Assembly (NCBI RefSeq): GCF_007752345.1
Contig: NZ_CP036299.1
Span: 1-64,000, forward strand
Direction: 5' to 3'
DNA: 64,000 bases
Origin: Planctopirus ephydatiae
Lineage (GTDB): Bacteria > Planctomycetota > Planctomycetia > Planctomycetales > Planctomycetaceae
Below the pieces are notes generated by a model that saw only the letters and a program-made list of their open reading frames with translations, was not told where the DNA came from and did no database searches. Positions 28,518-32,773 of this stretch are shown here, one piece after another. The number at the start of each line of letters is the position of its first letter. Within the stretch, counting starts at the first letter, position 1. The position numbers were made by a program, and so were the translations under genes.

Positions 28518-28558
28518 TTGACTCGCATGAACACTTTAGATATTATTCAATTGATGAA
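28518..28558 (+). promoter_or_regulatory. Promoter and candidate operator of the SmtB-type regulator
   Basis: TTGACT (28518-28523), 17-base spacer, TATTAT (28541-28546): five of six matches to each sigma70 hexamer. Half-sites overlap it: TGAA (28528-28531) and TTCA (28546-28549), then TGAA again (28555-28558). TTCAATTGATGAA (28546-28558) is an inverted repeat across the -10 end and start site, as expected if the ArsR/SmtB protein represses its own gene. Operator assignment is inference. Confidence 0.65.
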
Positions 28559-28580
28559 ACGATAGAGTGAGGTAGCCTGA

Positions 28581-28937
28581 ATGGATGAAGCCGAACCAGT
28601 TCTTCACGAGCACACGCATTCTCCACGCAAGCTGCCCATCGCCGATGTGGCAGCCTGTCAGATGGCGGCTGATATCTTTCGCGCTCTGGGAGATCCCAGC
28701 CGTCTGCGGATGCTCTCGTTGCTCATCCACGATGAACTCTGTGTTACTGAGATTGCCGAAGCTTTAGGAGACAACCTCTCGGCTGTCTCACAAAGGCTCA
28801 AGCTTCTCAAAAGCGAGCGCATCGTGGGTGCCCGCCGGGAAGGCAAGCACATCTTCTACCGCCTCTCAGATCATCACGTCAAAGACCTCGTGACCAATGC
28901 GCTCGAGCACGTTACGGAGCCCCACGACCATTCCTGA
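28581..28937 (+). CDS. ArsR/SmtB-family metal-responsive repressor
   Basis: 118 residues, winged helix: DIFRALGDPSRLRMLSLLIHDELCVTEIAEALG, recognition helix DNLSAVSQRLKLLKSE, wing REGKHIFYRL. The C-terminal helix fits the zinc-type alpha5 site DxHx10HxxE exactly: Asp97, His99, His110, Glu113. It also has a His-bearing N-terminus (HEHTHS) as SmtB does, and a C-terminal EPHDHS. Expected to release DNA when Zn, Co or a similar ion binds. Followed after 29 bases by a His-rich protein gene that it probably controls. Confidence 0.9.
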   Translation: MDEAEPVLHEHTHSPRKLPIADVAACQMAADIFRALGDPSRLRMLSLLIHDELCVTEIAEALGDNLSAVSQRLKLLKSERIVGARREGKHIFYRLSDHHVKDLVTNALEHVTEPHDHS

Positions 28938-28966
28938 AAACACGCCCAAATAGAAAGTCCCGACAG

Positions 28967-29311
28967 ATGGCTCATACATGTACCAGCCACGATCATGTTC
29001 ATGGCCCCAACTGCGGCCACAAAGCCGTTCAGCACAATGGACACATCGATTACCTGCACGACGGCCATTTGCATCATCAGGAGCAAGCCGGGCAAGTGAC
29101 TGAACATCAATTTGAAGTCAATGCGGCCAATCCCGCAACTTGCACATCAGGCCATGCCTGCACCAGTCATGCGGCTGATCACATCCACGGAGAGAACTGT
29201 GGTCACCCCGCCGTTCCTCACGGCGATCATGTCGATTATCTCGTCGATGGCCACCTGCATCATCAGCACGCTGGCCATTGCGATAATCACGGCCCGGTCA
29301 CTGTGGCATAG
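28967..29311 (+). CDS. Duplicated His-rich putative metal-binding protein
   Basis: 114 residues with 25 His and 6 Cys. Two copies of a 30-residue module, 8-37 and 70-99: each has HxHGxNCGH, then H-x-GHIDYL or GDHVDYL, then DGHLHH. A tail HAGHCDNHG follows the second copy. No signal peptide or membrane helix, so cytosolic. Composition and position behind an SmtB regulator suggest a zinc or nickel buffer or chaperone. Single-module relatives occur widely in bacteria without firm function; the internal duplication is notable. No transporter gene is linked apart from the divergent ABC ATPase. Confidence 0.8.
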   Translation: MAHTCTSHDHVHGPNCGHKAVQHNGHIDYLHDGHLHHQEQAGQVTEHQFEVNAANPATCTSGHACTSHAADHIHGENCGHPAVPHGDHVDYLVDGHLHHQHAGHCDNHGPVTVA

Positions 29312-29477: not shown

Positions 29478-30353
29478 ATGCCTGCCCGTATCATTGATGG
29501 AAAACTGATTGCCCAGCAGTCTCGCGAAGCATTGGCTCTTCAGGTCGCCGAGTTCACCGCCGAGACAGGTGTGACCCCTCGATTGGCTGCAGTCCTTGTG
29601 GGCGATGATCCTGCCAGTCAGGTCTATGTTTCCAGCAAGCAGAAAGCCTGTGCCAGTGTTGGCATGGCCTCTGACCTGTTTCGTTTACCTGCCACGACTA
29701 CTCAGGCCGAGTTACTTGAACTCGTGGATCGCCTCAACCACGATCCGTCGATCCACGGCATCCTCGTCCAACTGCCGCTCCCCTCGCATATTGATCCCGA
29801 AGCCGTTCTCGATGCGACACATCCTATGAAGGATGTCGATTGCTTCCATGCCGAGAACGTCGGGCTGCTCATTCAAGGTCGCCCAAGGTATCTTCCCTGC
29901 ACGCCTCACGGTGTGCAAGTTCTACTTGAAGCGAGTGGCGTCTCGACCGATGGTGCCCACGTTGTTGTTTTAGGTCGTAGTGACATCGTAGGGAAACCAC
30001 TCGCCAATCTGCTGGCTCTCAAAGGGCCCGGTGGTAATGCGACAGTGACACTTTGCCATAGTCGAACCCGCAACATTGCCAGCTTCACCCGTCAGGCTGA
30101 TATTCTGGTGGCGGCCATTGGTCAGCCACTGTTTGTCAAAGCCGATATGGTTCGTGAAGGAGCCGTGGTGATCGACGTGGGAACCAATCGACTCGATGGT
30201 AAACTGGTGGGTGATGTCGCTTTTCACGAAGTCTCTGAAAAGGCGGCTGCGATCACACCTGTTCCTGGTGGTGTGGGACCGATGACCATTGCGATGCTTC
30301 TCAAAAACACACTCACCGCTGCACGATTGCAAACGAAAACCATCGTCCGCTAG
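29478..30353 (+). CDS. folD: Bifunctional methylene-THF dehydrogenase / methenyl-THF cyclohydrolase
   Basis: 291 residues. One-carbon enzyme interconverting 5,10-methylene-THF, 5,10-methenyl-THF and 10-formyl-THF with NADP. Catalytic residues Tyr50, Lys54 (YVSSK) and Asp121 (MKDVDCF) fall at E. coli FolD numbering. VVVLGRSDIVGKPLANLL is the NADP site and PVPGGVGPMTIAML the C-terminal signature. The 166 bases before it hold no gene I accept. Confidence 0.95.
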   Translation: MPARIIDGKLIAQQSREALALQVAEFTAETGVTPRLAAVLVGDDPASQVYVSSKQKACASVGMASDLFRLPATTTQAELLELVDRLNHDPSIHGILVQLPLPSHIDPEAVLDATHPMKDVDCFHAENVGLLIQGRPRYLPCTPHGVQVLLEASGVSTDGAHVVVLGRSDIVGKPLANLLALKGPGGNATVTLCHSRTRNIASFTRQADILVAAIGQPLFVKADMVREGAVVIDVGTNRLDGKLVGDVAFHEVSEKAAAITPVPGGVGPMTIAMLLKNTLTAARLQTKTIVR

Positions 30354-30585
30354 CGACTCGCCTTTATCATGGCGTCGAGATCGAATGGCCACGTGCCCCG
30401 CTGAGTTTGCCCCGAAAAGTCTCCCAGCATCTGCCAGCTTCCACAAACCGACTCTTTCACTTCCATGAGTTCAATTTCTGGGCGAAATTTCTAATTCTCG
30501 CTCTGATAGTGTCAGTCAGCCGGTAGACTTAAAGCATTCATATCGATTGCGATGGGTCAGACTATCTGGTGCGAGAGCTGCGATC

Positions 30586-31629
30586 ATGCCAAATTGTTAC
30601 CAACTTCTATTGAACTCTGAGAGCGACCGTCTCCCTCGGGTTACTATAGCCATCGCGTTTGGCCTGAGTCTGCTTTTAGCGATGAATGCTTCAACAGCTT
30701 TGGCAGAAACCATCACCATTCGGGCAGCTCAAATCACGGTCGCAGAGCAGCTGGAAATTCCGGCTTTAGAATCAGGCACACTCGTCGAGCGGTTTTTCCG
30801 TGAAGGCGAAGTCATCGAAGAAGGTCAGAAGATCGGCCAGATTGATGACCAGGTCGCCAGACTGGCGGCTGCCAAAGCCCGTGCCGAACTCGCCTTAGCC
30901 AAAGCACTGACAGAGAGTGACTTAAAGCTGCGTTTTGCCCGCAAGAACGCGGAAGTCTCGAAAGCCGAACTGACAAGGTCGCTTGAATCGGTCGCGCGTT
31001 ATCCGAAGAGCGTTTCGCAGACCGAACTCGACCAATTGGCACTGGCTGCCCAGAAGGCCGAACTCGAGGTCGAGCAGGCTGAGTTTGACCAGCGGCAACT
31101 GGCACTCCAACAGGAGATTCGCGCACAGGAACTGGCAGGAGCCGAGTTAATGGTCGCGCGACGTGAAATCAAATCGCCACTCTCTGGTACGGTGGTGAAC
31201 TGGAAAAAACAGCGCGGCGAATGGGTTGATCCCGGGACACCAGTCGTGAGAGTTGTGCGATTAAATCCTTTGCGGATTGACACCTTTCTGCCATCCAGCC
31301 AGGCCCGACTGTTGCACATCGGGCAGACAATTCAATTCCTGCCTGTGGCCGGTAAAAAATCTCCCATCGATCCGTTGAAAGAAACAGGGAATCAACCTTC
31401 CCCTGTGAAAGCATTGGAAGGGAAGATCACTTTTATCAATCCGGAAGTCGATCCTGTCGGTCAACAGGTGCGGATCTGGATCGAACTGCCCAACCCGGAA
31501 TTGTCACTTCGACCCGGTGATCGTGGTGATGTCACTCTGGAGTTAACAGTAACTGACGCGCAAGTAATCCCACTGAAATCCACGAACACGACAAAGCCCG
31601 CTACGATTCCCGGTTTACAGCCTCGCTGA
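30586..31629 (+). CDS. HlyD/RND-type periplasmic adaptor (membrane fusion protein)
   Basis: 347 residues with a signal peptide ending at ALAETI. Lipoyl half-motif PALESGTLVERFFREGEVIEEGQKIGQID, a long alpha-helical hairpin (about 90-190) rich in Ala, Glu and Gln, the second lipoyl half IKSPLSGTVVNWKKQRGEWVDPGTPVVRV, then a beta-barrel with GKITFINPEVDPVGQQVRIWIELPNP. Adaptors of this type join an inner-membrane pump to an outer-membrane channel, but neither is adjacent. Start at 30586 preferred over 30547 for the signal peptide. Confidence 0.8.
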   Translation: MPNCYQLLLNSESDRLPRVTIAIAFGLSLLLAMNASTALAETITIRAAQITVAEQLEIPALESGTLVERFFREGEVIEEGQKIGQIDDQVARLAAAKARAELALAKALTESDLKLRFARKNAEVSKAELTRSLESVARYPKSVSQTELDQLALAAQKAELEVEQAEFDQRQLALQQEIRAQELAGAELMVARREIKSPLSGTVVNWKKQRGEWVDPGTPVVRVVRLNPLRIDTFLPSSQARLLHIGQTIQFLPVAGKKSPIDPLKETGNQPSPVKALEGKITFINPEVDPVGQQVRIWIELPNPELSLRPGDRGDVTLELTVTDAQVIPLKSTNTTKPATIPGLQPR

Positions 31630-31732: not shown

Positions 31733-32773
31733 CTACATCGCTCGACGTTTCGCGTCTGCATTTCTCAACGCATCAGTAAAATGAGGCTTCAGTGGATGAG
31801 TTGATTCATCACTCGAGAGTCGTGCTTCGGCTTTTTGAGGGAGCATCTGTTCGAAGTGTTGAACCAGAATTTGATCATACTGGCCGGGTTCTGTATGACG
31901 GGCCTTGTTATGTTTGGCCCTGGGGACAATCCAGACTTTTGCCAGAGGCGAACGGATCCGACGCATCAGTTCCTGACTCAAGTAGTAAGGAACATAATTA
32001 TCTTTCTCACCAGCAATAAACAACGTCGGACACGACTTGAGTCGCTTTAAGTAAGATTCAATGTGGACATATTGAACCTTTCTCCGCCGGGCACTCAAAA
32101 ACTGAACAATCGCCACTGTGGAGCGGTAGTGCCAATCGGGAATCAACGATTCGGCCCATTGAGGCATATAAATCGATGCCCAGCGGGAAACAAAATGAAA
32201 TGCCAGCATGGAAAGCGAATAGGCACCATCGCAGCAGGCCACGAGAACATGCGGATATCGAGCTGCGACCCAGAGTGCCGCTGTGGAACCTCGACTGACC
32301 CCCATCACACCCAGTGGCAAACTGCTGAATTCCGCATGACTCTCGATCCACTCCAGTGCTGAAATCGTATCGTCGATCTCATACCGAGTCATCCACTGGT
32401 TGGGTTCATAGCCTGCTAAAGAGTCGCTCTCTCCCTGACTGCGGAAGTCGAACGAAATGACAGCAAAACCAGCTCGGATCAGGCCATCGCAATAATGACG
32501 TGCCAGCCAGTGCGTGCCATCCAGTTCGGTGCAGAACAAAATCACTCCCCGAGGCAGACCAGCTGGTGGTCGATGAACCGCACCTCGCAACATCAGACCG
32601 AGAGTCGTTTTGAAAGTGATTTTTTCTGCTGCCGGATCAGGAAGAACATGTGCCACGTTGAATGGTGGTTTGATATCAAATGTCGAAAGGACAATTCGTA
32701 CATAAATAATACGAATGACAATTTCGATTGAAAGTAGTGCGATCAACAGGCAAATGGTGATCGTAAGGCCCAT
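31733..32773 (-). CDS. Membrane-anchored alpha/beta hydrolase
   Basis: 346 residues. An N-terminal membrane helix (LTITICLLIALLSIEIVIRIIYV) precedes an alpha/beta-hydrolase fold. Candidate triad: Ser160 in GVSRGS, Asp258 in GEKDNYVP, His288 in RAKHNK. VISFDFRSQGESD is the typical strand-4 segment. The substrate may be an ester or peptide; unknown. Single gene, C-terminus polar. Confidence 0.78.
   Translation of the reverse strand: MGLTITICLLIALLSIEIVIRIIYVRIVLSTFDIKPPFNVAHVLPDPAAEKITFKTTLGLMLRGAVHRPPAGLPRGVILFCTELDGTHWLARHYCDGLIRAGFAVISFDFRSQGESDSLAGYEPNQWMTRYEIDDTISALEWIESHAEFSSLPLGVMGVSRGSTAALWVAARYPHVLVACCDGAYSLSMLAFHFVSRWASIYMPQWAESLIPDWHYRSTVAIVQFLSARRRKVQYVHIESYLKRLKSCPTLFIAGEKDNYVPYYLSQELMRRIRSPLAKVWIVPRAKHNKARHTEPGQYDQILVQHFEQMLPQKAEARLSSDESTHPLKPHFTDALRNADAKRRAM

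Follow-up and report, generated by a model that had tools for sequence, protein, structure and literature searches.

The locus considered here raises the question of what a putative metal-responsive repressor may achieve by controlling, besides itself, only a small histidine-rich protein that belongs to no recognized family. The two genes lie in the window, by which we mean the whole 64,000-nucleotide stretch of Planctopirus ephydatiae DNA that was analyzed. An earlier note had described the pair as a possible metal-buffering module. The observation was confirmed, and the interpretation attached to it could be supported in part. We consider it probable that these genes form an SmtB/SmtA-like, zinc-inducible, and self-regulated sequestration or buffering operon whose zinc binder is of a new kind.

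Repressor, Promoter, and Operators

The first gene (28581–28937, + strand) encodes a 118-residue ArsR/SmtB-family repressor that scores above the cut-offs of two family models (NF033788: 90.7 bits, cut-off 55, E = 3.8e-26; PF01022: 39.1 bits, cut-off 22). This protein contains the DxH-x10-HxxE ligand set of helix 5, which is the criterion for the alpha5 zinc class. The signature DHHVKDLVTNALEHVTE begins with Asp97, and all four ligands of the perfect zinc-type site proposed by the earlier note (D97, H99, H110, and E113) were found in place. The ArsR-family model has 11 matches in the 5.2-Mb, one-contig chromosome, and the alpha5 motif occurs in the repressor of this operon only. These sequence features support the assignment as a zinc-type ArsR/SmtB repressor. 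They also suggest that zinc is the metal sensed by the operon, and that metal would derepress it.

The repressor gene is preceded by a predicted sigma-70 promoter (28518–28546, + strand) located directly at the operators. The −35 hexamer TTGACT (28518–28523) and the −10 hexamer TATTAT (28541–28546) are separated by 17 nt, just as the earlier note had read them, and agree with the consensus at 10 of 12 positions, although such a match by itself is near chance (1 found vs 0.7 expected). When 44 arsR upstream regions were submitted to an expectation-maximization motif finder, a 24-bp palindrome emerged that is present in 43 of them. With a symmetric matrix derived from 35 of these 43 sites, excluding the window, we scanned the entire 64 kb. 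The best match (predicted main operator TCAATTGATGAAACGATAGAGTGA, 28547–28570, 20.4 bits) spans the predicted transcription start, and the second-best match (predicted upstream operator ACACTTTAGATATTATTCAATTGA, 28531–28554, 18.0 bits) overlaps the −10 box. At these scores 0.005 and 0.02 sites, respectively, are expected per 64 kb, and the third-best site in the window reaches 12.3 bits. Both predicted operators are imperfect palindromes; they overlap by 8 bp, and the stretch they span includes the −10 hexamer as well as the predicted start. The overlapping TTCA/TGAA half-sites that had been proposed within 28528–28558 are correct as to a site at the promoter, but the sites that find support are a pair of 24-mers that overlap rather than simple half-sites. 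No spacing was enriched when TGAA/TTCA half-sites were enumerated at fixed gaps.

The main operator is conserved in the genus, the upstream operator is retained in three congeneric genomes (14.2–18.6 bits), and the paired arrangement is found again in loci L151–L153. Among the loci outside the matrix, the top site is situated just upstream of arsR in L151–L156, L159, and L160; the site in L158 is weak, and L157 contains neither ArsR nor a site. Since L151–L153 belong to the genus of the window and L154, too, is a member of the family, the matrix tests on L151–L154 are partly dependent. Loci without a nearby ArsR are mostly without an operator. The exceptions above the 99th percentile of shuffles are L035, L096, and L020, and L035 illustrates that at least one such locus keeps the operator (28.5 bits) with ArsR 2.5 kb away. 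These comparisons support that the promoter sits under a conserved predicted ArsR operator. The layout in the window agrees with that of SmtB-type promoters, in which a 12-2-12 repeat occurs once or twice close to the transcription start (PMC8790569).

In a regulon scan that covered the 64-kb window and the loci fetched by family searches, no site scored higher than 10.5 bits in the roughly 1.5 kb around the two CDF genes, the P1B-ATPase genes, the ZIP gene, and the ZnuA gene of the same genome. Therefore, the repressor looks dedicated to its own operon, and sequestration is favored over export as its local output. The same preference had been expressed by the earlier note, on the ground that the operon holds no efflux pump. 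Indeed, the two-gene operon contains no efflux gene, and the next gene is folD at 29478. A FUR-family gene in the same genome (L118; G000:C1 near 2054365) was considered as a second target and rejected. The 19-bit site upstream of this gene is absent in nine relatives and overlaps an apparent promoter element of the Fur gene itself, and chance alone would produce one such match in 5.2 Mb. The match is probably fortuitous; the gene adjoins a folE-type GTP cyclohydrolase gene.

The idea that the LolD-type ATPase encoded next to the operon could belong to the same regulon is unsupported because this synteny is limited to four genus members and absent beside all other family loci. On the 3′ side of folD lies a gene for a membrane-fusion adaptor of the RND/HlyD type (30547–31629, + strand). 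The gene after it (31733–32773) is on the opposite strand, and a pump gene was not seen right next to the adaptor gene.

The His-Rich Protein and Its Family

The stop codon of the repressor gene ends at 28937 and the second gene (28967–29311, + strand) starts with an ATG at 28967, which leaves the 29-nt gap noted before. The encoded protein has 114 residues with 25 His and 6 Cys, also as noted, and is present in a single copy in the genome. No signal peptide is evident. The proposed duplication is real, with 23 of 38 aligned positions identical between the halves, but the length of each copy is nearer to 38 than to the 30 residues first suggested. These homologous beta modules (approximately residues 10–47 and 72–108) are joined by a conserved NP-x2-CT linker.

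This protein matches no Pfam or NCBIfam family and has no relative in the PDB by sequence. An AlphaFold2 model based on 55 related sequences (mean pLDDT 83.7, pTM 0.75) contains eight strands of at least three residues, four in each half. According to this model the protein is probably folded. Foldseek returned no significant PDB fold match and VIA-align no match with Z ≥ 2; an absent PDB match is no proof of a new fold, and metal-free models of metal-binding proteins can mislead. Invariant residues among the 55 sequences include H10, H12, C16, H18, H23, H26, D28, H31, D32, H34, and H36 in the first half, and H72, H74, C78, H80, H85, D87, H88, H98, H101, H104, C105, D106, and H108 in the second half. 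In the alignment these His, Cys, and Asp columns present themselves as a specific ligand set rather than a loose His tail. The His-rich protein is accordingly very likely to take up surplus zinc in the cytosol, and it may bind and sequester several metal ions. The number of zinc ions per protein, and sequestration as its purpose, are likewise inferred.

A genome scan of GTDB contigs revealed at least 461 candidate stretches that encode a relative of the His-rich protein; 80 loci were kept, and the true number is higher. Relatives occur in Planctomycetota, Acidobacteriota, Pseudomonadota, Myxococcota, Gemmatimonadota, Verrucomicrobiota, and others, as well as on plasmids, including those of Pantoea, Paraburkholderia, Cupriavidus, Pediococcus, Rhodococcus, and Streptomyces. 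Within Planctomycetota the distribution is patchy (14 of 294 genomes). All four genomes searched from the genus of the window contain a family member, with identities of 96% (two genomes) and 78% (one genome). The search for the module and its neighbors, as proposed in the earlier note, established a conserved ArsR/His-rich cassette: of 97 non-redundant loci, 61 have an ArsR gene, which almost always immediately precedes the His-rich gene, and all but one of these ArsR partners (60 of 61) carry the alpha5 signature. Conservation of the His-rich gene without the regulator, which the earlier note had named as an argument against the module, is seen in part, at the 36 of 97 loci without a nearby ArsR.

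In several lineages the ArsR and His-rich ORFs are fused or overlapping. One ORF spans both proteins in six loci (L034, L052, L084, L091, L095, and L100). These ORFs are likely to encode true fusions; this is not certain, since the junctions inspected (five of six) contain an internal ATG.

NCBI records name such proteins hypothetical or "zinc transporter permease". The latter annotation is carried by short single-module relatives from Rhodococcus (NZ_AP026692.1, L023:3968–4117; NZ_CP034156.1), and their sequences, with about 50 residues and no membrane segment, do not support it. We found no curated family model, no solved relative, and no open-access paper on the His-rich family, and a description in a subscription journal may exist. 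The regulatory unit follows known SmtB-type logic; the His-rich family itself appears undescribed.

Sequestration, Storage, and Other Readings

Strong comparative evidence, together with established knowledge of the alpha5 class, argues for control of the SmtB–SmtA type, in which surplus zinc would release the repressor. At low cytosolic zinc, an ArsR/SmtB dimer bound to the two overlapping palindromic operators at the −10 box and the start would block transcription. Rising zinc would fill the alpha5 sites and cause the repressor to leave the DNA, so that repressor and His-rich protein would both be made. The His-rich protein would then bind several zinc ions in the cytosol and lower free zinc, which would let the repressor shut the operon again. 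Such a buffering role is plausible. However, conservation across phyla and the confident predicted fold exceed the needs of a simple metal sponge, the zinc-starvation genes among the neighbors point equally to supply as to detoxification, and about one-third of the family lacks an ArsR at the locus. The imperfect symmetry of the operators in the window also counts against this reading.

The neighboring genes elsewhere make zinc storage or metallochaperoning a serious rival. COG0523 genes were found at 13 of 97 loci, both with and without ArsR, compared to 0.4 expected from 51 CobW_C hits in 20 of these genomes (about 121 Mb); the resulting P value of about 4e-16 assumes independent loci, an assumption that does not hold for closely related genomes. 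Other recurrent neighbors are ZIP, ZnuA/ABC-3, NicO, and FUR-family genes. Zinc-supply genes adjoin about a fifth of the non-ArsR members; neighbors of non-ArsR loci include ZnuABC, COG0523, a FUR-family gene, and ThrRS paralogues. Given the clustering of family members with COG0523 and zinc-uptake genes, and the absence of a nearby ArsR in about one-third of them, the protein could be loaded when zinc is plentiful and later give zinc to, for example, COG0523 GTPases or apo-enzymes. The high sequence conservation and the predicted fold would also suit this function, as would the sites resembling Zur boxes that L053, L079, and L101 have in the shared intergenic region. On the other hand, canonical Zur boxes as a general feature of non-ArsR His-rich genes were rejected because they are not enriched upstream of this group (3 of 39 vs 1.5 expected), which makes a switch of these members to Zur control only a suggestion. 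Moreover, the neighbors in the window and the genus are folD and the ABC ATPase, not zinc-supply genes. We regard storage or chaperoning as possible but rather unlikely. With the same caution one may envision the His-rich proteins as an undescribed folded zinc-store family across phyla, filled under an ArsR sensor of zinc surplus and drained into the zinc-starvation network represented by the COG0523, Zur, and ZnuABC neighbors, with some lineages having moved the gene out of ArsR control. Sequestration or buffering is favored, storage or chaperoning is the main rival, and the boundary between the two is not sharp.

The six single-ORF loci also invite the reading that the His-rich protein mainly tunes its own ArsR, as a local metal buffer or as a donor or acceptor. 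Pairwise distances of the two proteins correlate in accordance with this idea (r 0.49 for 54 pairs, permutation maximum 0.31), but this correlation is also expected from shared descent. The internal ATGs mean that the fused frames could still yield two proteins, and one-third of the family would have no nearby ArsR to tune. An accessory role of this kind is therefore very unlikely. We judge it slightly more improbable still that the operon handles Co, Ni, or Cu instead of zinc. The alpha5 group can sense Zn, Cu, Co, and Ni (PMC8790569), which counts against a firm assignment to zinc, and NicO-family genes lie near five ArsR loci. In contrast, the remaining recurrent neighbors are zinc-linked (COG0523, ZIP, ZnuA, and ABC-3), and the alpha5 ligand set is identical to that of the zinc sensor SmtB.

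Two further observations concern individual loci. In the alphaproteobacterial loci L062, L095, L100, and L103, Zur-box-like sites (12–13 of 14 matches) occur close to the ArsR/His-rich pair. In L035, L056, and L063 (6693–8507), a large permease with an ArsP_1 domain at residues 271–549 is encoded near the cassette; no Pfam family matched its N-terminal membrane part at the limit applied.

Comparison with Known Systems

At the level of the motif PHGDHxxY, we take the His-rich protein to resemble the zinc-binding domain of pneumococcal Pht proteins. Membership in the Pht histidine-triad family was rejected: Pfam hits of 71 family members at E 0.1 include no Pht match, Foldseek ranks the PhtA domain 2cs7 29th, with a nonsignificant E = 7, and VIA-align gave no match with Z ≥ 2. 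Pht is a surface protein, whereas the His-rich protein, with no signal peptide evident, would be cytosolic. The same Pfam search of 71 members gave no match to a metallothionein family, and with 6 Cys and 25 His among 114 residues this protein does not have the Cys-rich composition of a metallothionein with its metal-thiolate clusters.

Known SmtB-type sequestration operons encode Cys-rich metallothioneins and are on record for few bacteria. Here, the same control logic would be combined with a His-dominated, apparently folded predicted binder in Planctomycetota, Pseudomonadota, Acidobacteriota, Myxococcota, and Gemmatimonadota, and on plasmids of Pantoea and Pediococcus. This family provides a direct way to ask whether many bacteria hold a dedicated cytosolic zinc store, a question that a review on zinc in Pseudomonas leaves open for metallothioneins (PMC10393844).

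Descriptions of SmtB and Zur encoded in one operon are confined to actinobacteria, namely mycobacteria and a few others (PMC7174638). Three loci of the Rhodopirellula/Rubripirellula type are similar in that an SmtB-type sensor is tied to a FUR-family gene, which directly follows arsR and the His-rich gene (L037:5473–5898, L046:5417–5908, and L055:5214–5645). The mycobacterial smtB-zur operon as described contains no His-rich protein (PMC7174638), and the operon in the window contains no FUR gene.

In common with SmtB–SmtA, BxmR–BmtA, and AzuR–NmtA, the present system features an ArsR/SmtB repressor whose alpha5 signature is DxHx10Hx2E; at the start site there are imperfect inverted repeats, either one or two, and the target is a small cytosolic protein that binds metal, here by prediction (PMC8790569). 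AzuR–NmtA from Anabaena combines the DxHx10Hx2E site with operators of the 12-2-12 type, of which each promoter has one or two close to the start (PMC8790569). Unlike SmtA, BmtA, and NmtA, the target in the window is dominated by His, duplicated, and predicted to adopt a beta fold, and its gene forms a co-directional operon with that of the repressor, whereas smtA and smtB form a divergon and nmtA and azuR are unlinked.
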